Origin: a virus
Length of the DNA: 28,244 nt
Strand: one strand, 5' to 3'
IMG/VR virus record: IMGVR_UViG_3300019880_000041
Coordinates: 1-28,244 of that record
Part shown: positions 5,539 to 23,382 of the stretch, piece by piece
How positions within the stretch are numbered: position 1 is the stretch's first letter
Layout: each line of letters begins with the position of its first letter
Notes under the pieces: generated by a model
Told to the model about the DNA's origin: nothing
Databases searched by the model: none
Seen by the model: the letters and a program-made list of their open reading frames with translations, nothing else
Program-made: the position numbers and the translations under genes

Positions 5539-6704
5539 TATCTTATTCGCTCAATTGAATGACTGGACATTTGGCCTGTTTTGCAAATCATATCCCATTT
5601 CATTTCAACGTATAGGAAATTATTAAACCCTTCATCGGGCGTACTGTAAATCCATCTATATACATCTCTGTTTTGACTTATCGGCCAAGGAAAAGTTCCA
5701 GCGGTTAGTTTTCCAAATACACGCGAAGCTGCCTGTCCTTCCGAAACAGCCCTTGCGATCATATGTTTCTTATCAGGAATAGAACTGGTACGAATAGTTA
5801 AAGTTTTAGGATGCCAGTTCTTTAACGAAACAGGGTCTTTTGGGTTATTGTTTTTCCATAAGTACGACATTCTTATGTTGTTAGTTTTACGAGCATCTTC
5901 AACAATAACCAAGACTTGATTATAAACCTTTGAAATATCAGGACGTTCCTGAATTGGAATCATTGTGATAGAAGAACCAGACGTTGTATCGAATAGAAAG
6001 GTTTCTTTAACTTTGGTATAGTCTGGAATCTTGGAAGAATGCATTACTCCAACTTCATCGAACCATGCAGGAAAATAGCTAATCGATGCAAGTAACTTAT
6101 TGATTGCTGACAGTCTAGTTTCACCAGCATCAAATGACCTACTAGCAGGAAGAATTGCATCCGACGGTTGAATGTTTGTAAATATAGGAGTTCGACCGCC
6201 ATAACCCTGAGCGATGGCCTTAACAGCGCCTACATAGTTAACATTCTTTCTAACCGTATAGGAAGATATAAATGTAGCGTCTGTTAATAACTGGCCGAAG
6301 TCGGGAGTTGTCAACATATTCCATGTATAACCGGGATATATGTCTTGATCGAATGGCGTCAATGTAAATCTTCCCAATTGCCATTCAACCCATCCGCCAT
6401 CAGGAGAACGTAATTGATAACGAACTCCAATGATATCAGAGAGAAAATTTATCTCTTTGAGTGGAGCGTCGCCGCGCAACGTCATTGTTAGTGACCGTTG
6501 AATAGCAGAAGTTGAATCATGCGTTATTCTAGGGGAAGTATTTTCAAAGTCTACATAAGGCGAAAAGTCAGTTTTATTTTTTAATGTAGCATCATACTGG
6601 TCGAAGAACCATCGCTCCTGACCTTGTTGATCCAGCAACATATCAGTAACAGCTTTGGCGTCATACGAAGTTCCTAATGTAGAAACCCTTGCAAGTTTTT
6701 GCAT
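5538..6704 (-). CDS. minor tail protein, baseplate hub-like
   Basis: The protein has 388 aa with no membrane segment or Cys-rich motif. Residues 50-150 are beta-rich (VDFENTSPRITHDSTSAIQR, SLTMTLRGDAPLKEINFLSD, then VRYQLRSPDGGWVEWQLGRF), followed by a helical insertion (AVKAIAQGYGG, ETRLSAINKLLASISYFPAWFD) and further strands. Repeated beta sheets split by a segment giving 'position, local frame' language is typical of the gp27/Tal-type hub of siphophage tail tips. Its place after the tape measure and the large tail protein supports this. It is overlapped on both sides by TAATG junctions. Exact family name not assigned. Confidence 0.65.
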   Translation of the reverse strand: MQKLARVSTLGTSYDAKAVTDMLLDQQGQERWFFDQYDATLKNKTDFSPYVDFENTSPRITHDSTSAIQRSLTMTLRGDAPLKEINFLSDIIGVRYQLRSPDGGWVEWQLGRFTLTPFDQDIYPGYTWNMLTTPDFGQLLTDATFISSYTVRKNVNYVGAVKAIAQGYGGRTPIFTNIQPSDAILPASRSFDAGETRLSAINKLLASISYFPAWFDEVGVMHSSKIPDYTKVKETFLFDTTSGSSITMIPIQERPDISKVYNQVLVIVEDARKTNNIRMSYLWKNNNPKDPVSLKNWHPKTLTIRTSSIPDKKHMIARAVSEGQAASRVFGKLTAGTFPWPISQNRDVYRWIYSTPDEGFNNFLYVEMKWDMICKTGQMSSHSIERIR

Positions 6705-9700: not shown

Positions 9701-10420
9701 AGAAATGGCCGCAGTTATAGCTCCATCAGTAACATTTATCTGAACAGTTTTACAGTTTGGACTCTTCCAAATAACCAAGAAACCTGTACTTGAATTACCG
9801 TCCCAAAATCCGGTAAGTCCCGCATTCTGCCAGTTTGCATCTGATTGAGTAACAATTCCACCGGGAACCAAAACCCAAGTTCCAACAGTTCCGTCCTCGT
9901 TTATCTCTGCCATATACAAACCTGCGGCAGCAGAAATATATGAAGTATTTGAAGCAGTACAATAAAGACGACCAGCCACTTCCGTCATTGCATAAACAGT
10001 CGGAGAGATACCGGGAGTTGCAATAGGAAGTGGATTCTCGTATCGCCACGTTCCAACGGCGGGTGATCCAACAGGAGAGGACATTAACTGTCCATCTGAC
10101 GGCATGAAATAAAGTCGCTCGTTATAGTTAACTACACTATTTCCACCACACGCTCTCTTTTGGGCGGGTAGTTGATTAACGGCAGGAACGCCACCTACCC
10201 AACCTAAATCCCAAGTTAATTGCGGGGAGGAAGGGAGTCCACCAATTGCAGTTCTTTCTGCATACATTCGCAACAGAGACAGTGGATTAGTAGTACCGTC
10301 TGGATTACTTTGTCTTGCTCCAAATATAATCGAATCATCAGTAACGTTTCCACCATGAAAGTTCGTTAGTTGACCCGGTGTACCTGGAAGTGTAAATGCG
10401 GGACTATTCGGCGCAGTCAC
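6704..10420 (-). CDS. large multidomain tail protein with propeller-like and Fn3-like parts
   Basis: The protein has 1238 aa and is Ser/Thr/Ala/Gly-rich and beta-rich. The N-terminal ~400 residues contain repeated motifs such as NERLYFMPSDGQL, AGRLYCTASNTSY, and NNTIYYMGGSAT, which resemble a kelch/propeller fold. The middle (~430-840) holds jelly-roll-like segments (FTIPAGGATVTKISCYFGGH). The part from ~990 to 1090 looks like Fn3 modules (DNVNGSVTAHWTNPNTGIPP). The last ~120 residues (GGWTAMLHIL ... GKIIVYRDTLGTVIYCALM) resemble the Dit-like end of minor tail proteins in some actinophages. It starts at GTG overlapping the tape-measure TAG (TAGTG). A tail-tip scaffold fused to a receptor- or sugar-binding body is the best reading. 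It may also be a target of the phage glycosyltransferases. Confidence 0.65.
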   Translation of the reverse strand: MTAPNSPAFTLPGTPGQLTNFHGGNVTDDSIIFGARQSNPDGTTNPLSLLRMYAERTAIGGLPSSPQLTWDLGWVGGVPAVNQLPAQKRACGGNSVVNYNERLYFMPSDGQLMSSPVGSPAVGTWRYENPLPIATPGISPTVYAMTEVAGRLYCTASNTSYISAAAGLYMAEINEDGTVGTWVLVPGGIVTQSDANWQNAGLTGFWDGNSSTGFLVIWKSPNCKTVQINVTDGAITAAISATVNPTFARDNLTAGIVVVNNSQGWILLIGGSASAASAVVDAEQVNIFTGVMSGVFAAKQALPAVRTGGTLIALQNNTIYYMGGSATNLASGAVSTVYYNSVSGILAPSAWTSSAQTLPTPSWLMGGGLTLPDYDLLAISNLADKITETITTAGALVSGASAMIVASFKAATTWALVQAGTILTGTNAAVAPTWPIPTVVGHQLFALVSGSDHTAGTPNLTLGETSAATSSFDFSGVNSDNEVFTDALFTIPAGGATVTKISCYFGGHTAAVNAKLCIWNRATGALIASSAQFSAGVGRALRSISMPSVVIAAGVTIRIGFWRDKAHDAEWGVAASGTFDYKTNVSAPGSVSGFGTCAGPYVCGHLQAYITYTSGTGAPSPITQSNPGTATGWSKIADLPNGDEELTIWMKPNSLVSDPAPAFASASGNSVMIAQLLEFSGGNTTLPTDQIGTVKQSGTSSSMIAAAPAPDSLPGELVISMSRWVLSAANTATLSDVQNNANNVQDGTTGASSQTRHMAVNHGIIPVGGTSTRSPFVCLVGGQTVAAAPTDVVIEASVNPASVPSDVRAWSSSIAPLGTALIVGNLSTGSGLNNNQDGTQDVTIPFGGIDGTLNGLATGTLFIGDINDGDELTITCQMVNIDGDPSPISTTTVKVGQPPTIGNPSPSGASNSCQPVVTFDYLSGVGGGAEASWEVQVLNNAAVIVADSGIVAGQDNFYAPKLYPLLASTLAASLNITVTSTDVPMPGSTNTSTIPVAFTPTNTAPDNSTTLSLTVDNVNGSVTAHWTNPNTGIPPITNRLWWRKNGSSVWLVAKQSIAALIATPQVFELMDSIPVGVKIDVGVSSLAGSEDTESAINLVGTGTISPDYHQDLGGWTAMLHILTEGPTFRVPIPNMPPVKYTRNVDSTATVMFGNTAPSVRYGVFNYRNIAIDVIPLNSQIVLLDTLMVEAMTGKIIVYRDTLGTVIYCALMPTQTRDIDLYYADKINLVETQFVFVGG

Positions 10421-13400
10421 TATCCATTCCTTCTCTGTGCGGCAAATGCATTAATAGAAGATTCTTCATTTGCAATTTGCTGAAGTAACGAGGTTGCCTT
10501 CTCTAACAATTCTTCCATTCTCTTTGTACTAATAGGTTTAGTTGGCGCAACTTGATTAGCTGCGCTTCCGGCAGGAGTCGCGCTTGCAACTATAGCCTTG
10601 GAAACGCTACCTGTGCTTGTTCTTGGCCCGAGAAGGTTTGTAAGCATTCCAGAGATATTTCTTTGAAGTGTTGGAATTTCACTAAGAACACCCATCCAAA
10701 TACCTTGTGGGATTGGCTTACCAACTTCATCAGCCCACAATACCGAGGGAGACTTAGACTTATTTTTCTTCTTAGCAGCGGCAGCGGCATCTACCATTAA
10801 CTTATCAATGGCTGCAAACATTCCACCAACTGCACCTTTATTCAAAAGGCCATCAGCGATACCGTCAGTCATTGCTTGTCCAACATCATAGAATGTTCTG
10901 TATGCAGCTTTCTTTCTGTGAATACCAGCCTTAAGATCAGCGGCTTCCATCTTTTGTCCAGCGGTTTGCATATTAATGGAACCATCGTTTCCAATCTTGG
11001 AAGTCATATCCATAGTATTGTTGTAGACTTGCTGCCACATATTCTGATAAGTTCCGTCATACATTTTGGAGAAATCAGAAGCTGACTTTAATTGGTCTTT
11101 AGTTGTTCTATCTATAATCTTCGACATTGCATCACCAGTTGACTTTGCAACGCCGGGAATCTTCCAGAACTGTCCGGTCATGGTGTACCACGTAGTTAAA
11201 CCAAGACCAATTGCTAATGTGAATGCACCCTGAATTCCATCAGCAAATAACAAAATGGCGTCAAGCGCAATTCCAATTGCAACTGGAAGTCCTACTGCAA
11301 AGTCTGCAACTAACGTTGCAAATGCAGGACTTTTAATCCAAGCAACAATTGCCCTAGAGAAATCAGAAAATCCCTGAGTGGCGTTGTCCCATAGACCACC
11401 ATGTTCAGTAAGGGTATCTGCAAAATCTCCAAATGCAGTATCAAATAAAGGTTTAACTATTTTAAGACCACTTGAAATTATATCCCATATTGACTTTAGT
11501 GTATTCCAAAGTCTCGTTCCGGCAGGAACTACTCTTCTTTCCCAAAGATCAGAAAGTGATCCCCATATTGAATGAATGAAAAGAATGGCTCCTGTCAACA
11601 ATCCGGCAGCAACTACTAATCCTGCAAATACAAGTCCAACAACTCCCAATGCAGGAAGTCCAACCGCTCCAATTGCCAGTATCGCACCAGCAACCATTCC
11701 CAAGGCACCCAATACTAAAAGAGCAGTTCCAAATATTAACATTAGAGCAACTGCGCCGCCACCGATTCCAGCAGCTAAATCTTGATTATGTTCAATCCAA
11801 TCAGTAAAACCTTTAACGATTGGAGTCAAGAACCCAAGAATACTTACTAGCATAGGAATGAATGCATATCCCAATGCAAGACCCGCCGCATTTAAGGCTG
11901 AAGTAAAGTCCTTCCACATCTGAGCGGGGTCGTGATCTTGAATGAACTTAAAGTTCGTTCCAAGTAATTTAGCCTGTGCATTAACGGCAGCCGTTTTTGC
12001 AATCAAACGATCGTTTAGAGTGTTTATTTCTTCTGTTGTAAATCCTAATTTTCTAAGCTCTGCATTGGAGGCCCGAGTTCCAGTTTGAATATTTTCATAA
12101 AGCGTAATGATGGCCTTGCCCATCTTACCGCCACCAAATGCTTTATAAATAACTTCAGCTTGCCCTTCCGCATTTAAACCAGCGGCAGTCAAGTGTTTGT
12201 GTAAATCCTGCATTGCAATGATGATGCCGCCCGGTTTGCGAAGATCATCAGCTAATTGAGCGTGACGAATTCCTGCCTTCTCTAGTTTATTAGTCCAGTC
12301 CTGAGAAACAGAAGAAACCTGAGCGGTAGTTAATCCAAATTCCTTTAGAACTTTATCTGAAGCTCCGGTTGGAGCAGTCATTAAATAGATAGCCATTCGT
12401 AGTGAGTTCGCAGCCTGAGTTGCTGGAATTGCATAGTCAGTCATAGTGGCTAATGCACCACCGAAATCAGCAAGGCCAACATGAGAAGATTTAAGAGTTG
12501 CTAAAATACCAGTTCTTAAAGCGGCATTTAAATCTTCCATTGTCATCATGCCCTGACCGACAATGGCATCTAGTGCACCCATCGCACCGATTGGGCCACC
12601 AATAATAGTTGGAAATACCTGCATTACAGCAGCTAACGCTCTAGATGTTTGAATTAAATCAGAGTGACCAACAGCCGCACCCATTGCAGCAGCATGTAAA
12701 ATATCCAATGCGTGTGCAGCGGTTGTAGCGCCTGCACCTTGTGATTCAATTAAGTACATTGCATCGGCAAGTTTATTAGCAGAGAATCCGGTATCTCCTG
12801 CCATACTAAGAATGCCCTTTCTTAACAATTCCATTTGATCGACAGTCTTAGTGATTCCATTTTCTTTAACAGTTATGAATAATGGAACACGCGCCTGAGT
12901 ATGCAAGAGATATAACTTAGACTGAAAATCTCCTGCTTTTCCAGCAGCAAACAATAGCGCCGCAGCAACAATTCCACCACCAATTAAGAATGCAGCACCA
13001 AGACCCATTGCCATTGCGCTTGCTTGCTGAATCGATCCTGCAATAGCAACCACACCCGCCCTTGCAACGGCAACTTGTTCTATTAATGCCGCATTAACTG
13101 TATTAATAGCTGCGATTTGTGCAGCCGCACCCGCTTCCATCGTTGCGGTTTGTAGGGATTGCGCTCCCTCAATTTTACGAGAAGCTACTATCATTGCATC
13201 TGCTGATTGATTTGCAACTAAAGCTTCTTTTTCATAAGCAATTGCAATTTTATTGCTTGCTAATTCAGTTACAGTAGCTACTTCTGCAATTACAGCAGCA
13301 GACCTTGTATCGGCATTAGCAAGTAATAAAGCTTCAGATGCAGCAGTTTGCTCTGCAATTGCCCTCATTCCAAGAGCAGTAGCTAATCTATCATTAGCAG

Positions 13401-13935
13401 CAGCATTTAAATCTGCTCGATCAGATTCTAATGTATATGCGCGAGATGCAATTAATGCAAGATCGGATTCAGCCTGTGCCTGAAGATAGGCAGATTCTGC
13501 AACCTTTAAATGAGCAGCCTCTACTCGATTAAAAGCAATTGCCTGATCTTGCGCTGCCTCTATAATTAATTTATTTGATGCAGCAACAGTTTTGCCGTAT
13601 CGAAGCTCAGCTTCAATGACTCTATTTCTGGCAAGCATCCCATTAATCGATGCTCTATCAGTAACTAATTCAAGATTTCTTTGAGCGGCGGTAATGCCTT
13701 CGGTTGCAGCTATATTCCTAGCCGAAGATTCTTGAACTACAGTTGCGTACCTTTGATACGCAAGGCCGACAGCGTTTGCTGCCGCCTCACTTCTCCTATT
13801 CCAATCGACCATTACTTGTCCAGTTTCTCGGGATAAGCCACCGATCATTTTTAATGAACCGGAAACTTCACTTACTGCACCACGCAGGAAGTTATATCCC
13901 ATGAACCGGATTACAATAGTCTCTAGATTTTCCAA
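10420..13935 (-). CDS. tape measure protein
   Basis: At 1171 aa this is the typical long tail-length protein around which the tail tube assembles. Residues ~45-300 are an Ala-rich, nearly Cys-free coiled coil. A hydrophobic segment at ~305-331 is followed by a TP901-type core (ANKLADAMYLIESQG; SRALAAVMQV), then a large hydrophobic region ~722-790. Near the C-terminus, KSPSVLWADEVGKPIPQGIW is the SPS-x-x-x-G-x-x-x-x-x-G motif common in tape measures. Using the usual ~0.15 nm per residue, tail length would be near 175 nm. The start is TTG (13935), two bases after the TAA of the chaperone extension, and no strong ribosome binding site is visible, so coupling is likely. The stop is TAG. Confidence 0.93.
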   Translation of the reverse strand: MENLETIVIRFMGYNFLRGAVSEVSGSLKMIGGLSRETGQVMVDWNRRSEAAANAVGLAYQRYATVVQESSARNIAATEGITAAQRNLELVTDRASINGMLARNRVIEAELRYGKTVAASNKLIIEAAQDQAIAFNRVEAAHLKVAESAYLQAQAESDLALIASRAYTLESDRADLNAAANDRLATALGMRAIAEQTAASEALLLANADTRSAAVIAEVATVTELASNKIAIAYEKEALVANQSADAMIVASRKIEGAQSLQTATMEAGAAAQIAAINTVNAALIEQVAVARAGVVAIAGSIQQASAMAMGLGAAFLIGGGIVAAALLFAAGKAGDFQSKLYLLHTQARVPLFITVKENGITKTVDQMELLRKGILSMAGDTGFSANKLADAMYLIESQGAGATTAAHALDILHAAAMGAAVGHSDLIQTSRALAAVMQVFPTIIGGPIGAMGALDAIVGQGMMTMEDLNAALRTGILATLKSSHVGLADFGGALATMTDYAIPATQAANSLRMAIYLMTAPTGASDKVLKEFGLTTAQVSSVSQDWTNKLEKAGIRHAQLADDLRKPGGIIIAMQDLHKHLTAAGLNAEGQAEVIYKAFGGGKMGKAIITLYENIQTGTRASNAELRKLGFTTEEINTLNDRLIAKTAAVNAQAKLLGTNFKFIQDHDPAQMWKDFTSALNAAGLALGYAFIPMLVSILGFLTPIVKGFTDWIEHNQDLAAGIGGGAVALMLIFGTALLVLGALGMVAGAILAIGAVGLPALGVVGLVFAGLVVAAGLLTGAILFIHSIWGSLSDLWERRVVPAGTRLWNTLKSIWDIISSGLKIVKPLFDTAFGDFADTLTEHGGLWDNATQGFSDFSRAIVAWIKSPAFATLVADFAVGLPVAIGIALDAILLFADGIQGAFTLAIGLGLTTWYTMTGQFWKIPGVAKSTGDAMSKIIDRTTKDQLKSASDFSKMYDGTYQNMWQQVYNNTMDMTSKIGNDGSINMQTAGQKMEAADLKAGIHRKKAAYRTFYDVGQAMTDGIADGLLNKGAVGGMFAAIDKLMVDAAAAAKKKNKSKSPSVLWADEVGKPIPQGIWMGVLSEIPTLQRNISGMLTNLLGPRTSTGSVSKAIVASATPAGSAANQVAPTKPISTKRMEELLEKATSLLQQIANEESSINAFAAQRRNG

Positions 13936-13936
13936 T

Positions 13937-14173
13937 TTATCCGAAGGGTTTCTTCGCCTTACTCCTTTCTATTTCTTTATTTTCTTTTTCGATCTTGTAG
14001 TTACGGTATGCCAGAAGTAGTTTGAAGTCTCTTGGATTTCCTAAGTATTTCTGATAAACCTCCGATGGCATTTCATGTGCTTCATTTGCCCATTCAACTA
14101 TGAACTTTAAAAACGCCATGCCGGGATAAGCGGGAACTATCTTACCCCCGATTAATTTTTCCCCTTGGTCAGC
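13937..14173 (-). CDS. tail assembly chaperone C-terminal extension (T-type frame)
   Basis: The frame begins inside the upstream chaperone gene and reads ADQGEKLIGGKIVPAYPG then MAFLKFIVEWANEAHE...YLGNPRDFKLLLAYRNYKIEKE. This is typical of the T part of tail assembly chaperone GT pairs: hydrophobic helix, WANE, short acidic/aromatic spacer, basic end. It contains an ATG at 14119 that could give a 60-aa product, but that ATG has no ribosome binding site. The frame is open upstream as far as a TAA at 14225-14227 and lies +1 (or -2) relative to the chaperone gene. I therefore read it as produced by frameshifting, giving a fusion of about 233 aa. It sits immediately before the tape measure, as T does in many siphophages. 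Confidence 0.7.
   Translation of the reverse strand, partial: ADQGEKLIGGKIVPAYPGMAFLKFIVEWANEAHEMPSEVYQKYLGNPRDFKLLLAYRNYKIEKENKEIERSKAKKPFG
14122..14150 (-). other. hairpin downstream of the candidate frameshift site
   Basis: On the minus strand CGGGGGTAAG (complement of 14141-14150) can pair with CTTATCCCG (complement of 14122-14130) as two 4-bp blocks with a small internal bulge. It begins about 19 bases after the TGA. It could stimulate frameshifting, or be incidental. Confidence 0.35.
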
Positions 14174-14224
14174 TAAGTTGAAGAAACGTAGGAAGTGACT
14201 CTTCCTCTTCCTCCGAGTAACCGC
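14169..14224 (-). promoter_or_regulatory. candidate programmed frameshift window
   Basis: Between the TAA in the downstream frame (14225-14227) and the chaperone TGA (14171-14169), translation could move from the G-type to the T-type frame. Candidate shift codons are TTT-C (14184-14186; UUU to UUC) and CTT-A (14177-14175; CUU to UUA) two codons before the stop. CUU is the shift codon of bacterial prfB and of the yeast Ty1 heptamer CUU-AGG-C, which is close to the CUU-AGC-U here. A purine-rich SD-like run (GGAGGAAGAGGAAGAG) lies upstream. The direction (+1 or -2) cannot be settled by eye. Confidence 0.55.
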
Positions 14225-14639
14225 TTAACTTTGCGATTTCATTTACGATTGCAGTAATCTCTCCTGCAAGTTTTGACTCTAATTCACTTGGCATCATTGG
14301 CTGAAAACCCGGCCTTCCCCTATATGCCTTGTTAAGAGATTCACATGCCGTTAACGTGCGCAAGAGTTTAAGATCAACCCGCTTGCCCATACTAGGCTTG
14401 CCGGGATTAATCGGCTTCTCTGCACCCTTGCGAACTCTATCGGTTTCTGATTCCGTTAAAGCTGCAATTCTTAAACGACCAGCGCGAGTATTGACATAAC
14501 CAATAACTGCGCTATCGTCAGAAGTTAACCATTGTCTCGGGTCAATATCTTCAACAACTGCGACTTCCGCAACTCCATTGCCAGATATTTCTTCCGAATC
14601 TTCAACTTGACTAGCTAATGCTGGCTTCCGCGTGTCCAT
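14169..14639 (-). CDS. tail assembly chaperone (G-type)
   Basis: The protein has 156 aa; it is soluble, acidic at both ends with a central helical region (KRVDLKLLRTLTACESLNKAY) and an acidic C-terminal run EEEEES. Position just upstream of the tape measure and the frame relation to the next ORF fit the G partner of a G/GT tail chaperone pair, which binds the tape measure during tail assembly. The ATG at 14639 has an AAGGAG ribosome binding site and lies 29 bases before the end of the upstream gene. The gene ends in TGA, with CTT AGC TGA as its last three codons, a plausible shift region. Confidence 0.75.
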   Translation of the reverse strand: MDTRKPALASQVEDSEEISGNGVAEVAVVEDIDPRQWLTSDDSAVIGYVNTRAGRLRIAALTESETDRVRKGAEKPINPGKPSMGKRVDLKLLRTLTACESLNKAYRGRPGFQPMMPSELESKLAGEITAIVNEIAKLSGYSEEEEESLPTFLQLS

Positions 14640-15009
14640 TTAAGTTCTCCTTTATTTCCTGTTCTTCAACTAGATGATCGGTAATCCTGCGACCAACTAG
14701 GGTTCTTGTAGTTTCTACTTGCTCTGTAATTATGTCCATTACAATTATACGAATCGTGTCCCATTTTTCTGCTGGAACTCCAATTTTAATAATGTCAAGG
14801 ACTCGCTTTTGATAAGTCCAATGCAAACCATAAATAATTTGCTGAACCTCACTCTTTAACCCAAGAGGGGGAGAGCCACTTGTTAGAGAAACTCTAGTAG
14901 TTGACTCTCCCTTTTTGGCTTTCTTGGGTTTTGTTTCAGGTGGCTTTTGAATTTGCCTAGCCCTATTCATTTGATCGGGCGTAGGTGCCATGCCCTTAAA
15001 CGGTTCCAT
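14611..15009 (-). CDS. hypothetical protein between major tail protein and chaperone, 132 aa
   Basis: The N-terminus is basic and Pro/Lys-rich (KPPETKPKKAKKGE), followed by a helical body with QQIIYGLHWTYQKRVLDIIK and IRIIVMDIITEQVE, and an acidic C-terminus. There is no membrane segment or Cys. An AAGGAG site lies 12 bases before the ATG, which is rather far. The gene's last 29 bases overlap the chaperone gene. Position suggests a tail-assembly or minor tail role. I do not recognise the family. Confidence 0.6.
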   Translation of the reverse strand: MEPFKGMAPTPDQMNRARQIQKPPETKPKKAKKGESTTRVSLTSGSPPLGLKSEVQQIIYGLHWTYQKRVLDIIKIGVPAEKWDTIRIIVMDIITEQVETTRTLVGRRITDHLVEEQEIKENLNGHAEASIS

Positions 15010-15028
15010 AAATCTTTTAATCTCCTTG

Positions 15029-15049
15029 AAAACTCAATCCTAGAGTTTT
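15029..15049 (-). terminator. terminator-like hairpin just after the major tail gene
   Basis: AAAACTC (15029-15035) and GAGTTTT (15043-15049) form a perfect 7-bp stem with a 7-base loop, three bases after the TAA of the major tail protein. There is no T-run beyond the stem, so it may act as an mRNA-stabilising or attenuating structure rather than a full terminator. Confidence 0.4.
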
Positions 15050-15051
15050 AA

Positions 15052-15540
15052 TTACTGACCGTAAACGTCCTCTGCCTTAAAGGTGATATCCTCAGTCGTC
15101 ACCTTGTCAGACGCCCACTTAATAGTATCTTTTTCAAACGTAACGTTTGCAATGACCGTGTTAGGGTTAACAATACCCGAACCGGGCCAGTTCGCGTTAA
15201 GAATGATAATCTGATATCTAACAAATGGGTCTTGCGAATCATATGTTAATGGCCCTGATGCAGCCGCCGAAGGCGTTGCATATCCATTCCACATTGATCG
15301 CAATGCACCGTTAAGCCAATAGCCCTTAACAGTTCCTGAAACTTCAATACGACCTCTCCGATATCCGGTTCGGCGCGTACCAAGAATAGGAAGTGCTTCA
15401 AGTTTCTGGTCTGCATCGAAATCAATTTCATAGATTTCTCCGATGGTTACATAACCACCAGCAGGGCCAAGTGCCTGTAACAGAATTTCAGAACCATGAG
15501 CTACAGCTTCCGGCTGAATCGACATTAGAGATGGAGACAA
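15052..15540 (-). CDS. major tail (tube) protein
   Basis: The protein has 162 aa and is beta-rich. The pattern starts with helix-poor sequence containing GPAGGYVTIGEIYEIDFDA and repeats strand pairs through GRIEVSGTVKGYWLNG, RYQIIILNANW, ending in TTEDITFKAEDVYGQ, in agreement with siphophage tube proteins. Start is TTG (15540), preceded by a perfect AAGGAGG at 5-6 bases. This strong initiation signal fits a highly made tube subunit. The ATG at residue 6 is too far from the ribosome binding site. It follows the tail-completion gene and precedes the chaperone pair and tape measure. An adjacent hairpin (15029-15049) may protect its message. Confidence 0.8.
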   Translation of the reverse strand: MSPSLMSIQPEAVAHGSEILLQALGPAGGYVTIGEIYEIDFDADQKLEALPILGTRRTGYRRGRIEVSGTVKGYWLNGALRSMWNGYATPSAAASGPLTYDSQDPFVRYQIIILNANWPGSGIVNPNTVIANVTFEKDTIKWASDKVTTEDITFKAEDVYGQ

Positions 15541-15564
15541 ATTTACCTCCTTTTCTTAGAATTT

Positions 15565-16089
15565 TTACACATCAAGAGTGACATAAACATCCCCCTCAAT
15601 GACCACATCGTAACGGTAGAGTTGAGCCGAATCTTCTTTTGATTCATGGCTGTGAATCATCCGAAGATGCCTGATTTTGGAGAGGCGATTTCTATTGTAA
15701 AACATTGCTGCATATACTTCGCTTCCCAATTTTCGGGCCATATCCATTCCTCCTAATTGCTGATCTACCCAAATGCTAATTAGAAAGGACGGACTTGCTC
15801 TCCTACCAAGACGCCATTGTAGCGGTCCCGCGCCTACTCCTGTCTTGTCTATGTCACTAAACGAGCGCGTAGTCTCGACAGGCTCCATGCTAACAATTGA
15901 AATTATAGGTTTAGTCATTTGTTGATGATCCTTAGCCTCCATTTGTCTTATTAATTGCCAAGGCCATCCATCAACAACTAAAACGCCCTTATCATAAGTA
16001 TATCCACTAACTGGAAATGCATTACTAAAATCCCACGCTAAAAGTAAGTTCTTTTTAAGGTCGGTTAGAGGTTCGTCCTGAAGTCCCAT
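15565..16089 (-). CDS. tail terminator / tail-completion protein
   Basis: The protein has 174 aa. A first helix (EPLTDLKKNLLLAWDFSNAF) is followed by alternating strands and helices, the general pattern of phage tail terminator proteins: two strands, a helix, then strands (ISIVSMEPVETTRSFSDID; PSFLISIWVDQQ; LYRYDVVIEGDVYVTLDV). It is placed between the gp10-like neck gene and the major tail protein, exactly where the tail terminator gene lies in HK97-type gene orders. ATG overlaps the neck gene stop (TAATG). Family name inferred from order and layout. Confidence 0.7.
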   Translation of the reverse strand: MGLQDEPLTDLKKNLLLAWDFSNAFPVSGYTYDKGVLVVDGWPWQLIRQMEAKDHQQMTKPIISIVSMEPVETTRSFSDIDKTGVGAGPLQWRLGRRASPSFLISIWVDQQLGGMDMARKLGSEVYAAMFYNRNRLSKIRHLRMIHSHESKEDSAQLYRYDVVIEGDVYVTLDV

Positions 16090-16517
16090 TAAATTCCAGT
16101 GCCTCTTGCAACAATTCTTCCAGCTACCACCGTCTTTCTTGCGGTACTTGCTCTAAGTTCTGCAATAGTAACTGCCCAATATCCACGACCTTCATATGGA
16201 GCGCCAGCTTCGTGACCATATTCAACAAATATAGGATAGTAAACGCGGTGAAATCTATCTCTTGAAATATAAACTTGCCCCGCAGCCACAGCACCCTTTG
16301 ACTTTACCGTTCCAGATTTAACTGAATTCAGTAAATCATAAGTTCTTTTGTATCTAGTATTTGGCCCTTGTGGTCTTGCATAAACATATTCTTGAATATT
16401 CTTTCTAGCAATGTTTTTGCCCTACGCTTTATCTGCAAGTGCAACCCTAGCGGTTAATCTAGTTATTGTTCTTTCAATATCCGTTTCGGGATCGGTAATA
16501 GTGATGCCGCCAGCCAT
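16089..16517 (-). pseudogene. HK97 gp10-like neck/tail-joining gene interrupted by one amber codon
   Basis: A single reading frame of 143 codons runs from the ATG at 16517 to TAA at 16089, and is interrupted only by TAG at codon 32 (16424-16422). The upstream part reads MAGGITITDPETDIERTITR...VALADKA; after the TAG it continues GKNIARKNIQEYVYARPQGP...NRYKRTYDLLNSVKSG and ends ..VAGRIVARGTGI. Long helix, then conserved R/K-rich and Y-rich part and two beta strands (HRVYYPIFVEYGHE) suit the gp10-like family, a neck protein. Other genes here end with TAG (sigma, tape measure, GNAT, 1204-1539), so TAG is not reassigned. Point mutation, sequencing error or readthrough are all possible. Start and stop overlaps (TAATG) are kept on both sides. 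Confidence 0.7.
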
Positions 16518-16963
16518 TACCTAACTACCATTGTGACAGCCTTCCAAAATGACCCATCGGCACTTAAAACAGGATTTTCTAATTTAAACCTAACGCCAGA
16601 AGGGTCGAGAATAAAATCATCATCTTGAACAACCACTAGGTTATAGTTGTCGTCAATGGCAGGGAACTGAACTAAGAATCGCTCCATCCACATTCTTGAT
16701 GAAACTGTATCTCCACCATCCTGCGCAACGCCCCGAAGATTTAACCCATCCCATGTTGCCCAAATTAAAACAGGAGCAGACATAGGATTATCTGTTGATC
16801 GTGGGTTAGGTTGTGTATATTCAGTATTAAGACCCTGTGGGCCTACAGCGACTTCAGAACCTTCTTGAAGTCTGTGATAAAGAGATGCCTGTGGATGACC
16901 ATTTCCAATACAGCATTCTTTATGTAATTGATAAATTTCAATCTGACGATCGGTAGCGGGCAA
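16517..16963 (-). CDS. neck / head-closure type protein, 148 aa
   Basis: The start is TTG at 16963; an upstream stop in frame prevents a longer protein and no strong ribosome binding site is visible. Content is beta-rich (PVLIWATWDGLNLRGVAQDG; NYNLVVVQDDDFILDPSGVR; FKLENPVLSADGSFWKAVTM) with a Cys-containing N-terminal helix. It stands between the connector-like and gp10-like genes, the usual place of head-closure proteins, but the sequence does not match a family I can name. A short ORF just upstream shares an ATDxxxxxx-like pattern but is not in frame. Confidence 0.6.
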   Translation of the reverse strand: MPATDRQIEIYQLHKECCIGNGHPQASLYHRLQEGSEVAVGPQGLNTEYTQPNPRSTDNPMSAPVLIWATWDGLNLRGVAQDGGDTVSSRMWMERFLVQFPAIDDNYNLVVVQDDDFILDPSGVRFKLENPVLSADGSFWKAVTMVVR

Positions 16964-17025
16964 AATTATTTAAGTTCCATTGCTTTTAAAAATTGTCTCT
17001 CCGTAGAATTGCTATCAGTAGCCAA

Positions 17026-17856
17026 TTAATGACTCGCTCTTCCAACTGTTACAGCAGAACCTAATGCGTTTTGTACGTCTGCCCTGAGATTTTCTGCTTG
17101 CGCTCTAATTGAAGCGGGAGAACTCCACCGTTGCATAACTCCTGCTTTAAGTTGTGAACTTTTCGCCAACCTATCGGCTTCTTGGTCCAAAACTTCTGCA
17201 AGAGCGAATTTTGCAAAATACCTTTTGTGATTTTCTGGAACAGTCGGATAGGTGGGGTTTCCTTGACCATCAACGACAGCACTATAGCCAGATGTATAGC
17301 GAACAAAAATGGGTAAACCGGAAGTAGTAGGAATAGGAAAAATATCAATTACTGGCACTCCATCTGCACCCCTTGCGGTGCCCCAAAATCCTTTAGTGTA
17401 ATGATCTAATTCATCAAACATTTCCTCTCGAATAACCCTCTCAGAAGGTTTAGAGAGAATATTTCCCTGAGTATGAAACCAGTTAAATGGCGAAATTGGC
17501 ATTAACTGAAGATATGCTATTTCGGATGCAGCGGTAAAGACCCCTGAAGCCTTAAAGAGAACATCAATAACATCTAAAACTGGAAGTGTAAATCCATTCG
17601 CTATTGAACATGAATACCTACTGACGCCGGGAATAGTTGATAATGGAGAAGTCGGAGGTGTTCCACCAATATTTCCTACAACAATATCACCAATAGGCGA
17701 CCACTTTGCAAATTCTTCAGCAGCATTCTCTACGTAAATCGCCAATGAAGCATCAGGAATTTTAAAGGTCGGTCCTAAATCTTCAATTTGTCCACGAACA
17801 TAGGCAATAACGTCATACGTAAGTGCCGCTCCGATTTTACAAGTAAGTGGGGCCAA
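17026..17856 (-). CDS. head-tail connector (adaptor) protein
   Basis: The protein has 276 aa, helical at N-terminus (YVRGQIEDLG; AIYVENAAEEFAKWSPIGD), then Trp/aromatic-rich core and C-terminal long helices (ALAEVLDQEADRLAKSSQLK; SSPASIRAQAENLRADVQN) as in adaptors that bind the portal ring. It starts at TTG (17856), just after the TAA of the 46-aa gene, with AAGGAG 9 bases upstream. It begins the neck block after the glycan genes. The best reading is an adaptor or head-tail connector of the gp6/gp15 kind. Its stop is followed by 62 non-coding bases before the next gene. Confidence 0.65.
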   Translation of the reverse strand: MAPLTCKIGAALTYDVIAYVRGQIEDLGPTFKIPDASLAIYVENAAEEFAKWSPIGDIVVGNIGGTPPTSPLSTIPGVSRYSCSIANGFTLPVLDVIDVLFKASGVFTAASEIAYLQLMPISPFNWFHTQGNILSKPSERVIREEMFDELDHYTKGFWGTARGADGVPVIDIFPIPTTSGLPIFVRYTSGYSAVVDGQGNPTYPTVPENHKRYFAKFALAEVLDQEADRLAKSSQLKAGVMQRWSSPASIRAQAENLRADVQNALGSAVTVGRASH

Positions 17857-17997
17857 TTAAAGAATCTCCTTAGATGATATTACTGTAACCCATCCAATTG
17901 GACTTTTAACCCTTCTTGTTACCTTGGATTCGGTTAAAAACCGACAATTCTTTTTATGTTTCAGGATTTTAGATTTACAAACAGGACAGGCTTCCAT
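17857..17997 (-). CDS. 46-aa zinc-ribbon-like small protein
   Basis: This very short gene lies between the GT2 gene and the connector gene. It has AGGAGA as ribosome binding site 8 bases before the ATG at 17997. The peptide begins MEACPVCKSKILKHKKNC: a CPVC knuckle plus a third Cys at residue 18, then basic and Trp-containing sequence ending SSKEIL. The three Cys (and His14) could hold one zinc. Its TAA touches the TTG of the connector gene. It may be a small zinc-binding regulator or accessory; no family recognised. Confidence 0.65.
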   Translation of the reverse strand: MEACPVCKSKILKHKKNCRFLTESKVTRRVKSPIGWVTVISSKEIL

Positions 17998-17999
17998 TA

Positions 18000-18854
18000 T
18001 TAATTATCTCTCCTATAAGTCCACGTATACGTGACTCTACCGGGGATCATACGCTTTAAGTCCCGGTATTCGGTGAGGTAGCGGCGTTCACTTTCAAGAT
18101 AGACAGCGGTTCCAGCTTGCATTCCTTCAGGAATTTCAATGCGATGTTCCTTGCACCATTTTTCAGAGTCGGCTTCTATTTTTGGAATCAAAACTAAGGT
18201 CTGACCGCCCATGTGGTCTATTTCAATTCCGAGAACTCCAACGTGCCAACCGTTTTCAATCGCACGTAAGGGCCAAACTCTATCACCAAAATGATTTAAT
18301 GCAATGTTGTCATCAACACCCAAAACCCTAACAACAGGCTGGCGCATTGCAATAAAAAGGGAATCAAGAATAGCCGCCGGTTGTAGGTCGGTAATTTTCC
18401 GTCCTGTATGTTCCGCAAGCGCACCTTTTTCTCCCTTAAAATTCATCATCGTTCCACCACCACGACCGCCACGGTCATCAACTTCGCTTGATCCACAAAA
18501 ACCAACTATTCCTAAATTACCTTTTTCAACAAATGCCTTAACTAACCGACGATCCCACCCACCTTCATAAAAGATAAGATCGTTATGGCAAAGCGCAACA
18601 ATATCTGCCGTAGTTGCCATATCCGCTAAGTCGGTAATAGGACGATAGAATCCACGATTCGATTCACTTCTAACAACACGAATGGCCCATGGAAAATCCA
18701 AACGCCCCCAATCTCTCTTGTATGGAATCTCTGAACCGTTATCAAAAATTACAATAGTAAGTTGTTCGGGGTCAGCGACCGTAGCAGCTATTGATTGTAA
18801 ACATTTCTCGGTTAAGTCTTGATTATTTACAACGGGAATTCCTAAGTAAAACAC
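18000..18854 (-). CDS. GT2 family glycosyltransferase
   Basis: The enzyme has 284 aa and a GT-A fold and probably transfers a sugar from a nucleotide donor. Motifs are IFDNGS (36-41), NRGF (66-69), the DxD-equivalent HND (90-92) in ALCHNDLIFYEGG, and a later LNHFGDRVWPLRAIENGW, which takes the place of the usual acidic acceptor-site segment. The start is GTG overlapping the GNAT stop TAG (TAGTG). It is the third transferase of the head-region glycan set, grouped with the aminotransferase and acetyltransferase, so it may transfer the N-acylated amino sugar they produce. It could also work on the fibre proteins directly. Donor is unknown. Confidence 0.88.
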   Translation of the reverse strand: MFYLGIPVVNNQDLTEKCLQSIAATVADPEQLTIVIFDNGSEIPYKRDWGRLDFPWAIRVVRSESNRGFYRPITDLADMATTADIVALCHNDLIFYEGGWDRRLVKAFVEKGNLGIVGFCGSSEVDDRGGRGGGTMMNFKGEKGALAEHTGRKITDLQPAAILDSLFIAMRQPVVRVLGVDDNIALNHFGDRVWPLRAIENGWHVGVLGIEIDHMGGQTLVLIPKIEADSEKWCKEHRIEIPEGMQAGTAVYLESERRYLTEYRDLKRMIPGRVTYTWTYRRDN

Positions 18855-19480
18855 TAATCATAACTCTCTATTGCAATTTGATTCACTTCAATCATCTCCT
18901 GCGATATTGAACTAGATGCTATTTCTATAGGGGCTAGTTCCCGAACTACAGGTTTACCTAGTCCTGCAAGAATATCCTGTTCCTTAAATCGATATGATCT
19001 ATTACGATTGTGCTTCATTATCAAAAGAGCCTTGCCGTCAATATGCTTTTCTTCTTGAACTTCATATCCTACACGAATGTCACCAATTAATGCAAGATTA
19101 TCTTTCCAAACATCAATCCAAACATCATTAGCTTCACGATGGCCCATTTCAGTTATGTATGAGATAAGAAATCTAGAAAGACCCTTTGATCTGTAATCCT
19201 TTATTAATCCAGCAGTCATCCAATACTTATCATCATCCCACTTAAGAAGGCCATAGCCAATTGGAGTCAATCTATCATATAGAAGATAAGCTTCAAAAAT
19301 TCCATCACCACGAAACTCGGCTAGATGTTCATTGTAAAAAAGCTTCTGCTGTGGAGTATCGATGTATCCGGTATCGTGAGTCATTCCTTCACGACATTCA
19401 TTCCGAACATCTCTTAATTCAAGCGCCTGATGCCACTCTTCAACGCGAACAAATGAAAGTCTTAGTTTAGATTGCGGCAT
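18854..19480 (-). CDS. GNAT-type N-acetyltransferase, 208 aa
   Basis: The ATG at 19480 has AAGGAG 7 bases upstream, inside the end of the aminotransferase gene; the overlap is 14 bases. A longer frame reaching 19654 lies over that gene and has no better start. The acetyl-CoA loop is YRSKGLSRFLI (97-107) after strand-rich sequence (FEAYLLYDRLTPIGYGLLKW) and before the helix ISYITEMGHR. It ends with a ~50-residue tail beyond the GNAT fold. Placed right after a sugar aminotransferase, it probably acylates the amino group of the sugar, as in FdtC or PseH-type steps, but the substrate is inferred only. The stop TAG overlaps the next GTG. Confidence 0.8.
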   Translation of the reverse strand: MPQSKLRLSFVRVEEWHQALELRDVRNECREGMTHDTGYIDTPQQKLFYNEHLAEFRGDGIFEAYLLYDRLTPIGYGLLKWDDDKYWMTAGLIKDYRSKGLSRFLISYITEMGHREANDVWIDVWKDNLALIGDIRVGYEVQEEKHIDGKALLIMKHNRNRSYRFKEQDILAGLGKPVVRELAPIEIASSSISQEMIEVNQIAIESYD

Positions 19481-20603
19481 GGGACTTCTCCTTAACAAAA
19501 AACGAGTTGACAGTCGTACAAACATATTCTCTTTCCTTTTCAGATAAGTTCCAATGAACGGGAATTGAGACTTGTCGATCTGTGAAACTATCAACACCGG
19601 GAAGTGGATGCTTCTTGAACGGAGCAAAACAGGTGTGAGTATCGCAACGCGCATGAACTTGCGAAACCATTACTTTCTTTTCTTTCATATACTCCATAAA
19701 TTCAAGGCGCTGTTCTTTCGACTCGCAGAGTAAAGTGTAGAGCCAAAATGAAGAGTCTAGTAAATTCGATTGAGGAAACGCTGGCTTCGGGCCTTTCAGG
19801 TTCTCGTAATAAAAACGGGCATTCCTTCTTTGATTTGCAATGATACCTTCTAAATACTCCAACTGAACCATTCCGATTGTGGCATTGATATCGTTCATGT
19901 GCCACTTCCATCCTGCTTCTAAGATATCTTCTTCGCAACGCATATCCTTTCTAGGGGTGTCTCGGTCAATTCCATACCACCTTAGTAATTTTCCACGTTT
20001 ACTATCAGAAGTTCTTTTAGAAGCTAATATTCCTCCATCAACTGAAGTAATGGATTTAATTGCTTGTAATGAAAATGCGGTGAAATCGACATAACCCGAC
20101 CCGACCCTACGATGCCCGTAGAAGGCTCCAAGAGCATGGGCGGCGTCCTCGATCAACCGCACCCCGTACCGGGCCGCTGTGAGGCTCAGGCTGTGCCAGT
20201 CGCAGGACTGACCACCCCAATCCACGCCCATAATCGCCACAGTATCATCTTCGATCTTTCTGGCAACATCTACAGGATCAATTAATCCAGTTTCGCTATC
20301 AATATCTGCCCAAATAATTCTGCCACCACGCGCAAGGATTGCAGTATTTGTTGCAGAACAAGTCATTGGAGTGGAAACTACTGACGTTCCCTGTTTAACG
20401 CCAGATAAATGAAGTCCGAGTTCAAGCGCAGAAGTTCCTGAATTGAGAGTGAGTACGTTCTCATTACCCAAGTAAGTTGCGATCTTTCTTTCAAATTCAT
20501 CTACCTTCTTTCCTTGTCCAATATATCCAGAATGAAGAACTTCCAAGAGTGGTTTATCAACCGCTGCTGGCATATGAACTGCGAAAAGATTTACTTGTTC
20601 CAT
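19467..20603 (-). CDS. DegT/DnrJ/EryC1 family sugar aminotransferase
   Basis: This is a 378-aa PLP enzyme, a typical length, that should transfer an amino group to a keto-sugar nucleotide. Visible signatures: LNSGTSALELGL (53-64), EDAAHALGA (152-160), and FSLQAIKSITSVDGG with the PLP lysine K183, plus a C-terminal domain that ends with a short charged tail. Start overlaps the preceding stop (TAATG). It is directly followed by the GNAT and the GT2 gene, so amination, N-acylation and transfer can be done in turn. No dehydratase gene for the keto-sugar is in the window; the host or other phage genes must supply it. About 120 bases (residues 128-168) are much more GC-rich than the rest. Confidence 0.95.
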   Translation of the reverse strand: MEQVNLFAVHMPAAVDKPLLEVLHSGYIGQGKKVDEFERKIATYLGNENVLTLNSGTSALELGLHLSGVKQGTSVVSTPMTCSATNTAILARGGRIIWADIDSETGLIDPVDVARKIEDDTVAIMGVDWGGQSCDWHSLSLTAARYGVRLIEDAAHALGAFYGHRRVGSGYVDFTAFSLQAIKSITSVDGGILASKRTSDSKRGKLLRWYGIDRDTPRKDMRCEEDILEAGWKWHMNDINATIGMVQLEYLEGIIANQRRNARFYYENLKGPKPAFPQSNLLDSSFWLYTLLCESKEQRLEFMEYMKEKKVMVSQVHARCDTHTCFAPFKKHPLPGVDSFTDRQVSIPVHWNLSEKEREYVCTTVNSFFVKEKSHAAI

Positions 20604-20953
20604 TATATTGCCTTTAGCATAGCTATTGAAAAGAAATCTCCATCATCAACTAATCCGTTGTTATACGTAACGACATACTGACAAACATAGAGAATATGTG
20701 GATCGCTTGGAAGTGCAGGGGCAGGGAAATCACCGGGAATTACTTTATAGTTAAACCTTCCTATTTGTAAGTTTACGTACGTAACCGCCCCGGTTCCTGT
20801 ATGTGTAGTTCCGTCAGGATAAAGGATTCTAAGAGTAATAACTGAATTTGTAGTGTCAGGATTTCTTATATCCTTGGGGGTTTTGTCATCTTTAAGCCAT
20901 GTTTCGACCCACGTTAAATTTGTTTGAGTGCTAAATATAGGAGAGCGCGCCAT
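20603..20953 (-). CDS. hypothetical beta-rich virion protein, 116 aa
   Basis: This small protein is mostly strands (NLTWVETWLKDD; VITLRILYPDGTTHTGTG; AVTYVNLQIGRFNYKVIP; LYVCQYVVTYNNGLVDDGDF). The layout is that of an immunoglobulin-like or BppU-N-type sandwich. It has one Cys. It is coupled to the repeat protein upstream and to the aminotransferase downstream by TAATG overlaps. It may help fix the repeat/LamG fibre to the virion, but this is a guess from its position. Confidence 0.6.
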   Translation of the reverse strand: MARSPIFSTQTNLTWVETWLKDDKTPKDIRNPDTTNSVITLRILYPDGTTHTGTGAVTYVNLQIGRFNYKVIPGDFPAPALPSDPHILYVCQYVVTYNNGLVDDGDFFSIAMLKAI

Positions 20954-22680
20954 TAGTGTGTCCTCATTGTTTTAGTTGTTCCAATTCCATCTCTACTCGA
21001 TGTGATTCCAATTCCATCTCTTGAAGTAAAGTCTCCTACACCATCTCTAGACGAGACAATTCCACCATCTCTAGAGTATACCTCTCCAACGCCATCCCGA
21101 CTCCAAGTTATCGCATCTACAAATACTGGAATTCCAGCAAATATAAAAGCTGCATCAATTATTGATTGAATTACATCTAATGCTGTTCTTAAAAATGATT
21201 GTGGTCGTCTAAGGGTAGAGTCAGAAATAGTTACCAAAACATCGGACGCTGTTCGGTTTCTTGATGTTGATTGTCTTACGGTAGTATCAGATAATGCATT
21301 AAGTGCATCTGAAGCCGTACGAAACGCAGTTGCCTTTCTAGTAGTTGATTCAGTTATTGTAGCCAGTGTATCAATGGCAGTTCTTAAGAACGATTGAGGT
21401 TGTCGGGTTACGCTATCAGATATAACAGAAAGTGAATCACTAGCTGTTCGCAATCTACTCTGAGTGGCGCGGACTGCATTATCGGAAATTGCATTAAGTG
21501 TGTCAGAAGCGGTTCTAATAATACCTTTAATCATAGTAGCAACATCGGAAAGGCCAAGGCCGACATTGCCAGCGTTATAATGCGCTAATCCATCACTTAC
21601 TGAAAGTTCTCGATTGTATATAGCTACATGCGCCATATCCCCTTTATATTGAAGGTTATTTCCATTTCCAGCCAACCACAGAGTTGCCAAAACTCCAAAA
21701 ATTCCAGCAGGGTCATCAGCAACTAAAATACCATCAAAAATTAATCTAAATCGTCCGCCAGTTTTTCTCGTATAAAGAACGTGATGAACACCAGTAGTTG
21801 GAATGACGAAGCTTCCAAAACTATTATGTCTTATAGTTTCAAAATGTGTTGGGTAAGCGGTTCCGTCCCCATTCCATCGATCTAAATGTCCAGTACTAGT
21901 TCCTGTCGTTCCAAAGATATAATCAAGAGAAGCAGGTAATCCATTAAAATGCATCCACCACTCAATGCTTTGCCCATTAACATCATTTAATGCCGCAAGA
22001 ACATTTGCTTGTGAAGCTGCACCATTAACCGTTCCATCACAAGTTAAGGAAGTCGAACTTTCTGAAGGAAGCACATTTGGGCCTCCAAGAGTTGCACCAG
22101 CAACATTAGCGACAGTTAAGTTATAACCATTTCCTGTTGCATCTACAGCTACAGTTCCAACCGAATCATTCATAGGCCAATAGGCCGCTGGACTTTGTGA
22201 AAGGATGTAATTTTTGTAAGAAATTCCAAGACTATCTGTTGCGGTTCGTAAAAAGGACTGTGATTGTCTAAGTGCTGTATCTGAAATTGTAGAAAGTGAA
22301 TCCGCGACTGTTCTAACCCTTGAATGAGCCACCCTAACAGCACTATCGGTTATTGCTGAGAGTGTATCTGAAGCTGTGCGAGAAATTCCCTTAAATACTG
22401 CGGTTGTTTCTGACAATGCAGCAAGGGCATCGGAAGCGGTTCTTTGGAGTTTTATTAACCTACTAGCTGAATCTGATATCGAATTAAGAGAATCAGAAGA
22501 AGTTCTCAGAAAGGATTGAGGATTGCGAAATGCGGAATCCGTAAGTGCTGAAAGAGAATCAGAGGAAGTTCGGGGAAGTGCGACTATTCTAACTGCGCTA
22601 TCTGAAAGTGGATTAAGAGTATCAGACGCAGTTACGCTAGCGTGAGTTCCACTACTAATTAATGCAAGTAATAAACTCAT
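20953..22680 (-). CDS. repeat fibre protein with a nested LamG-like domain
   Basis: The protein has 575 aa. Two arrays of 21-22-residue units (consensus like RTASDSLSAISDSAxRxxQSFL) flank a laminin-G/concanavalin-like domain (about residues 155-375; SPAAYWPMNDS ... GNGYNL; SIEWWMHF; LDYIFGTTG; HHVLYTR; LIFDGILVADD; VAIYNRELS). The LamG sits inside one unit: residues 145-152 (RTATDSLG) match the first half and 377-388 (LSDVATMIKGII) the second half of the neighbour unit RTASDALAALSETTAVFKGIS. Residues 527-570 hold five short SRDG units. No signal or membrane segment. LamG suggests carbohydrate binding. The Ser/Thr-rich arrays may be glycan acceptors. Starts and ends in coupled junctions. Probably a head- or tail-associated fibre, to be verified. 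Confidence 0.75.
   Translation of the reverse strand: MSLLLALISSGTHASVTASDTLNPLSDSAVRIVALPRTSSDSLSALTDSAFRNPQSFLRTSSDSLNSISDSASRLIKLQRTASDALAALSETTAVFKGISRTASDTLSAITDSAVRVAHSRVRTVADSLSTISDTALRQSQSFLRTATDSLGISYKNYILSQSPAAYWPMNDSVGTVAVDATGNGYNLTVANVAGATLGGPNVLPSESSTSLTCDGTVNGAASQANVLAALNDVNGQSIEWWMHFNGLPASLDYIFGTTGTSTGHLDRWNGDGTAYPTHFETIRHNSFGSFVIPTTGVHHVLYTRKTGGRFRLIFDGILVADDPAGIFGVLATLWLAGNGNNLQYKGDMAHVAIYNRELSVSDGLAHYNAGNVGLGLSDVATMIKGIIRTASDTLNAISDNAVRATQSRLRTASDSLSVISDSVTRQPQSFLRTAIDTLATITESTTRKATAFRTASDALNALSDTTVRQSTSRNRTASDVLVTISDSTLRRPQSFLRTALDVIQSIIDAAFIFAGIPVFVDAITWSRDGVGEVYSRDGGIVSSRDGVGDFTSRDGIGITSSRDGIGTTKTMRTH
20971..21102 (-). repeat. five SRDG micro-repeats at the C-terminus
   Basis: Residues 527-570 comprise SRDGVGEVY, SRDGGIVS, SRDGVGDFT, SRDGIGITS and SRDGIGTTK, 8-9 residues each. 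The DNA shows the matching CCATCTCTAGA-like units on the plus strand. Function unknown; such short Gly/Asp units can bind metal or form beta-solenoid turns. Confidence 0.85.
21124..21552 (-). repeat. second array of 21-22-residue protein repeats
   Basis: It encodes residues ~377-519: the second half of the split unit, then units beginning at residues 389, 411, 433, 454, 476 and 498. It shares the consensus with the first array, including RQPQSFL and RRPQSFL units. The last unit decays to RTALDVIQSIIDAAFIF. Confidence 0.85.
22225..22632 (-). repeat. first array of 21-22-residue protein repeats
   Basis: It encodes residues ~17-152: six full or partial units starting near residues 17, 37, 59, 80, 101 and 123, and the first half of the unit begun at 145. 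Each starts with RT-[AS]-x-D-[ST]-L. PQSFL or QSQSFL endings recur in several units. The Ser/Thr content is high. Confidence 0.85.
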
Positions 22681-22683
22681 TCA

Positions 22684-23382
22684 TTAGTAAGCAGTTACTT
22701 CAGCAACTCTAGCTGTAAACGATGCAACCCAAACACCAGTACCGGGAACAGAAGCGCGAATTGCAATCCCCTCGTTTTGAGCGCAAACAATGGGATATGC
22801 ATTTTGATCTGGAACGGCGGGACTTGGATATATAGGAACAGCGCCGGGATAACCAACAGAAATTTGCGCAGAAGATTGAACTCCTACTTGAGTTTCGCCA
22901 CCAGCTACTGCAACACCCGTTGAAGTGTTTCCTCTAATTACGCGCAACGAAACAGTCGCAAGAGTTTTAGTTCCTGCACCTAATGCAGCGGTAGTTGCAA
23001 TACGAGCAGTTGCAGTTGGAGCAGCAAAAGAAGTACGAAGTTTTTCTGGAACCTGCGTAGCGCCACCAGTACCATCAACAGTCCATGCAGTTGCGCGTAT
23101 AACATCAAATGCCCATGTTCCAGCAACGAATGCTGTGGTGGCAACAAAACTCTCTAATACAACATCATAAATGAGAAGAAGGTTAGCTCCGGTATATCTT
23201 AATTGGAGAATTTCACTAGCAGCAGCAAGACCAGCCGCCATTGATCCAGTAACGCAACTTATCATGTATTGACCAAGAGAACCTACGTCATCAGGCTTAA
23301 GAATAACGTGCATTCCCTTTTGTGAAGCTGCGCCTACTTCAGCTAACGCACCGCTTGTTCCGCCAATAATTGGAAGTCCCAT
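22684..23382 (-). CDS. hypothetical virion structural protein, 232 aa
   Basis: A Gly/Ala/Val/Thr-rich protein with MGLPIIGGTSGALAEVGAASQ at its start, then strand pairs throughout (MHVILKPDDVGSLGQYMISC; LLLIYDVVLESFVATT; FDVIRATAWTVDGTGG; IAIRASVPGTGVWVASFTARV). This pattern is common in phage head or tail accessory proteins and gives no enzyme signature. The ATG follows directly on the TAA of the upstream gene. Five bases and a second in-frame stop separate its end from the repeat gene. Likely a decoration or fibre-associated subunit. Confidence 0.65.
   Translation of the reverse strand: MGLPIIGGTSGALAEVGAASQKGMHVILKPDDVGSLGQYMISCVTGSMAAGLAAASEILQLRYTGANLLLIYDVVLESFVATTAFVAGTWAFDVIRATAWTVDGTGGATQVPEKLRTSFAAPTATARIATTAALGAGTKTLATVSLRVIRGNTSTGVAVAGGETQVGVQSSAQISVGYPGAVPIYPSPAVPDQNAYPIVCAQNEGIAIRASVPGTGVWVASFTARVAEVTAY

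Follow-up and report, generated by a model that had tools for sequence, protein, structure and literature searches.

A candidate +1 frameshift site, UUU_CUU, in the tail assembly chaperone-like gene of a phage group known from metagenomes

Two overlapping frames between the tail tube and tape measure genes of a virus, here called G and T, are well supported by sequence comparison as a G/GT-type fusion made through the +1 frame, and the fusion probably arises when tRNA-Phe on UUU slips +1 to UUC at a UUU_CUU site. The window analysed here is the whole 28,244-nt stretch of IMG/VR virus record IMGVR_UViG_3300019880_000041 (positions 1 to 28,244), whose structural genes are carried by the minus strand (Table 1). 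The frames, their conservation and an invariant TTTCTT are observed directly, and the chaperone-like fold of G comes from a model. Most tailed phages make this kind of chaperone fusion by a −1 shift. G/GT shifts of −1, −2 and +1 are already known (PMC5009743), and what would set the UUU_CUU +1 site apart is its unusual context. In a SEA-PHAGES training set, forward sites are a minority (350 vs 2368 motif sites; PMC10885494).

In the window, G ends with TTT CTT CAA CTT AGC TGA, and T, which is +1/−2 relative to G, is open from 14224, after a TAA at 14227-14225, with the two frames overlapping over 14224-14171. The order tail tube, small ORF, G, T, tape measure is common to the window and three relatives (L002, L008 and L009), and these four, as well as a more distant relative, L019, carry an overlapping pair of frames flanked by the tail tube and tape measure genes. 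A previous sequence-only reading of the window had described a frame that stays open into the end of G at an offset of +1 (or −2). This observation is confirmed, and the +1 layout recurs in L002, L008 and L009, whereas the interpretation built on it is supported in part. The same +1 layout in three diverged relatives indicates more than chance.

Table 1. Coordinates of the features around the G/T junction (window positions unless another record is named)
Feature	Coordinates	Strand	Details
G, tail assembly chaperone-like gene	14169..14639	minus	156 aa, 0 frame; ATG 14639 with AGGAG upstream
T, +1 open frame	13937..14224	minus	coding conserved from ~14185 (FFNLAD...) to TAA 13939-13937
60-aa ORF at 3' part of T	14119..13937	minus	opens with ATG 14117..14119
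TTT CTT, putative +1 shift site	14181..14186	minus	invariant in 4 lineages, flanks vary
TGA stop of G	14169..14171	minus	9 bases past TTTCTT in 4/4 sequences
Purine-rich stretch TCGGAGGAAGAGGAAGAG	14199..14216	minus	encodes acidic segment of G
Upstream 132-aa gene	14611..15009	minus	overlaps G start by 29 nt; similar ORF at same position in L002, L008, L009
Tail tube protein	15052..15540	minus	PF09393 9.9e-5, PHROG 365 1.3e-4
Tape measure protein	10420..13935	minus	PHROG 28 9.5e-14; TTG start just past T stop
G of L019	5876-6352		T in frame of ORF 5848-6627; starts 28 bases apart

Relatives were obtained from IMG/VR with G, T and the tail tube protein as baits, which yielded the independent relatives L002, L008 and L009 plus the distant, GC-rich L019. 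The first three are 49-54% identical to the window in G, 36-58% in T and 66-81% in the tail tube protein. The junction of L008 is identical in L006 and L007, these contigs coming from three different metagenomes. With G, T, the tail tube protein and a 575-aa protein as queries (window 13937-22680), the phage group has no detectable relative among 50,697 records of sequenced phages, and the species genomes searched likewise gave no relatives. All the sequences compared are metagenome assemblies, and a sequencing or assembly error could in principle make a true single frame appear as G and T. Such an error is hardly credible, however, given that the offset is repeated in four diverged sequences, that one junction is identical across three metagenomes and that the G-frame TGA stands at the identical place in all.

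T lies in the +1 frame in all four sequences, whose junctions read ACG TTT CTT CAA CTT AGC TGA in the window, TCC TTT CTT CCG GTT AGC TGA in L002, GGG TTT CTT CCG GCT TTC TGA in L008 and TCC TTT CTT TCC TTT AGC TGA in L009. TTTCTT and the TGA at +15 are thus invariant in 4/4 while the neighbouring bases vary, and only one of the 15 bases 5' of TTTCTT is the same throughout. In parallel, pairwise identity in the T frame rises from 8-10% before TTT to 63-69% from TTT onward, where the residues are FFNLAD, FFRLAE, FFRLSD and FFPLAD, and identity in the G frame drops to 22% past TTT CTT. The jump in the T frame implies that selection on T as a protein begins at about TTT, where a shift would place it. 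The last codons of G, CTT AGC TGA, had been compared with the prfB and Ty1 sites, but the codons homologous to CTT AGC are GTT AGC, GCT TTC and TTT AGC in the relatives, and CTT AGC TGA was rejected as a site common to the group. The TTT-C mentioned second in the same reading is, on the other hand, the element that is invariant in all four.

The invariance of TTTCTT nevertheless has to be read with care. The chance of TTT CTT in 4/4 from codon usage alone is ~0.003 (product of usages, with F-L fixed), but the need to encode F-L in one frame and F-F in the other would by itself force TTTCTT, so that, with only four independent sequences, invariance alone is no proof of slippage there. Transcriptional slippage was also considered and was rejected, since no long homopolymer is common to the junctions.

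From these comparisons we infer that shifting occurs, and with it the exact codon, the +1 rather than −2 direction, the efficiency and the role in assembly, along the following lines. Most ribosomes would terminate at the TGA at 14171-14169 and release G, and a fraction would slip by +1 while tRNA-Phe is on UUU (14186-14184), re-pair with UUC and then read the T frame as UUC-AAC-UUA-GCU... The product would be a 233-aa G-T fusion (152 residues through TTT plus 81), in agreement with the ~233 aa expected by the sequence-only reading. If the lambda scheme applies here, G would bind to the tape measure protein, with the T part of the fusion bringing in the tail tube protein.

A re-pairing test of every codon in the overlap points to the same codon. 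Indeed, UUU to UUC re-pairs at 3/3 positions in 4/4 sequences, and UUU_C lies in the 0-frame phase within the overlap, also conserved in 4/4. Besides UUU, only the adjacent CUU re-pairs at +1 in 4/4, with a first-position G-U, so a slip may instead take place one codon later, with tRNA-Leu on CUU moving to UUC or UUU and a product reading ...F-L-N-L-A-D. A CUU with C or U after it is kept in all four sequences, with 3/3 re-pairing, CUU is the prfB slip codon, and the next codons in the relatives (CCG, CCG, TCC) are less common than CUU, the window's CAA being common. This later slip is nonetheless unlikely, as its re-pairing loses a Watson-Crick pair where UUU to UUC gains one, its A site holds no stop and varies among sequences (CAA, CCG, CCG, TCC), and no Shine-Dalgarno (SD) sequence stands at the prfB spacing. 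UUU_C is preferred because the slip to UUC gains a Watson-Crick third pair.

The same frame could also be entered by a −2 shift, with a product reading ...F-L-F-N-L-A-D, and there is a precedent in the G/GT pair of phage Mu (cited in PMC3498833, PMC5009743). A P-site CUU could in that case re-pair with UUC at 3/3 positions, including one G-U, in all four sequences. With UUU in the P site, however, re-pairing is 1/3 in all four, and when CUU is there instead, the tRNA in the A site re-pairs at 1/3 positions in the window and 2/3 in L002 and L008, which makes a −2 shift highly unlikely.

For the favoured +1 slip on UUU, the A-site codon CUU is common, at 22-34 per 1000 codons as judged by phage codon usage, and UUC, the codon in the +1 frame, is rarer than CUU, the reverse of what a rare-codon stimulus usually involves. 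Since CUU is among the commonest codons, the usual stimulus of a slow A site is absent by phage codon usage; UUU_CUU has neither a rare codon nor a stop in that position. The proved bacterial +1 sites are few, and most depend on a stop or a rare codon.

Other stimulators were evaluated by position and by folding. Fold z-scores against shuffles revealed no conserved stimulatory RNA structure at the shift site, the downstream values being ~+0.8 in the window and about 0 to +0.8 in L002. A hairpin at 14122-14150, which had been put forward as a stimulator, is no stronger than shuffled sequence and lies ~36-64 nt downstream of the site, and it was discarded. The upstream purine run pointed out in the same reading is common to all four sequences (GGAGG or GAGGAGG), but it codes for acidic residues of G and, at ~20-30 nt 5' of the site, is too far upstream to act as a prfB-type stimulator. 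Stimulatory SD sequences are spaced 3 nt from the site in prfB and about 10 in dnaX, and the run was rejected in this role as its spacing is wrong for either. A stem between the purine run and the TTTCTT pyrimidines appears in 100-nt folds; it was also rejected, as z is near 0 except in L008 and its 3' arm would lie under a ribosome positioned at the site. L008 folds strongly on both sides of the site (3330-3450; upstream z −3.9, downstream z −4.9), which is the case in neither the window nor L002.

T might also be started separately, either by initiation within the overlap or by ribosomes that restart past the G stop, in which case no frameshift would be needed. In the T frames of L002 and L008 an ATG abuts GGAGG, at −26 and −23, respectively, with GGAGG extended in L008 to a AGAGGAGGAGG run, and the window has the ATG at 14119. 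However, GGAGG and ATG are separated by 0 nt in L002, and the T frame between the ATGs of L002 and L008 and FF is unconserved, whereas the part from FF onward, 5' of the window's ATG, is conserved. In particular, the T frame of L009 lacks ATG, GTG and TTG around the junction, and that of the window lacks them upstream of 14119, so that half the family would need non-standard starts. Taken together, a separate start is highly improbable: it may be used in L002 and L008, but it cannot be the common mode across the four. As L009 has no standard T start near the junction, fusion is the natural route to T there.

The window's own ATG fits this picture. No SD-like sequence lies upstream of ATG 14119 (TAGTTCCCGCTTATCCCGGC), as had been noted for the 60-aa ORF, no ATG is found at the equivalent position in the relatives, and the 22 T-frame residues upstream of it include conserved positions; ATG 14117..14119 is probably an internal Met of T and not a start. 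The sequence-only reading had looked to relatives for an open frame, which is present in 4/4, and for the lack of a clear start, which L009 bears out; L002 and L008 have their GGAGG-ATG, which is unshared. T thus appears to be a second frame without its own start that is conserved across the junction, with the reservation that an ATG stands beside GGAGG in two of the four sequences.

The case for G as a tail assembly chaperone is good, though not conclusive, and is based on a predicted fold, weak sequence matches and a location with the tail tube gene on one side and the tape measure gene on the other. G matches Pfam TAC_5/XkdN weakly (1.2e-4, 22.5 bits, under the cut-off of 27), as it does the XkdN-like PHROG 389 (E 2.5e-4). 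An AlphaFold2 model of G (mean pLDDT 69), for which five sequences of the family were used, has YqbN of the XkdN family (3klu) as its best PDB match (probability 0.96, E 0.06), and among viral models it matches many annotated tail assembly chaperones (probability 0.9-1.0, E 1e-3 to 0.1). G and T were modelled apart, as TTTC does not single out the junction (an earlier TTT CAG is found in G and other TTTC in the relatives), and the T model (82 aa, mostly helical) gave no significant match in a fold search.

Known systems share parts of this arrangement. The G/GT pairs of lambda and Mu shift by −1 and −2, respectively, whereas here the frame is +1, with a shared UUU_CUU. In HF1-like haloviruses, TTT-CGC near the stop, within a conserved 15-bp block, has been proposed as a +1 chaperone site (PMC7230728); for these viruses and HSTV-2 a +1 shift is predicted in the same kind of gene pair as in the window. 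HF1-like viruses, however, infect haloarchaea and have CGC in the A site, where the window's group has the common CUU. A +1 shift at UUU_C has been demonstrated by experiment in influenza A PA-X, in which the next codon, CGU, is rare (PMC3498833), and UUU_CGN has been inferred as a +1 site in plant amalgaviruses (PMC5052127). Both resemble the present site in the P-site change from UUU to UUC, and L002 and L009 even have the PA-X context UCC_UUU_C, but they involve eukaryotic ribosomes, unrelated genes and CGN instead of CUU in the A site. Among phage structural genes, +1 frameshifts occur in tsh of Listeria phages PSA, A118 and A500 and in PSA cps (reviewed in PMC5009743, PMC3498833), although these use CCC_U sites and concern major tail and capsid proteins and not chaperones. 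Finally, prfB (release factor 2) shifts by +1 at CUU_UGA, and CUU is within the present motif too, but the window's junction has no A-site stop and no SD at 3-nt spacing.

The distant relative L019 differs in direction, as its T is −1 (or +2) relative to G. Its junction is GAG CTT TTC GGC TAA, read in the T frame as GCT TTT CGG CTA AGC, and the resulting AFRLS aligns with FFRLS. U_UUC is found at the homologous Phe codon (6340-6352) although TTT and CTT are rare in L019 (TTT is 8% of Phe codons). U_UUC fits the Z_ZZN tetramer class of −1 sites, which is known for −1 shifting (PMC4066793, PMC13313380). The alignment suggests that the shift switched direction at this Phe codon, in a single L019 assembly in which a 1-nt error would mimic the change. 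A family with +1 at UUU_C in four lineages and −1 at U_UUC in L019, the +1 shift proceeding without a rare A-site codon, a stop or an RNA structure, is a tentative and rather doubtful reading.

A conserved UUU_CUU without visible stimulus, together with an apparent −1 shift at the same Phe in L019, would allow the factors behind the direction and level of a frameshift to be tested directly by comparing relatives. In practical terms, gene callers will miss or mis-start T in this phage family.

Elsewhere in the window, sugar-related genes adjoin the structural genes (19467-27862). They include an aminotransferase (19467-20603), a methyltransferase (25222-25899) and two glycosyltransferases (25899-27862), the first of which shows 55-71% identity to its counterparts in the L002, L008 and L009 records. 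An HNH endonuclease gene is located at 1790-2215 (PHROG 3106, 8.8e-26).
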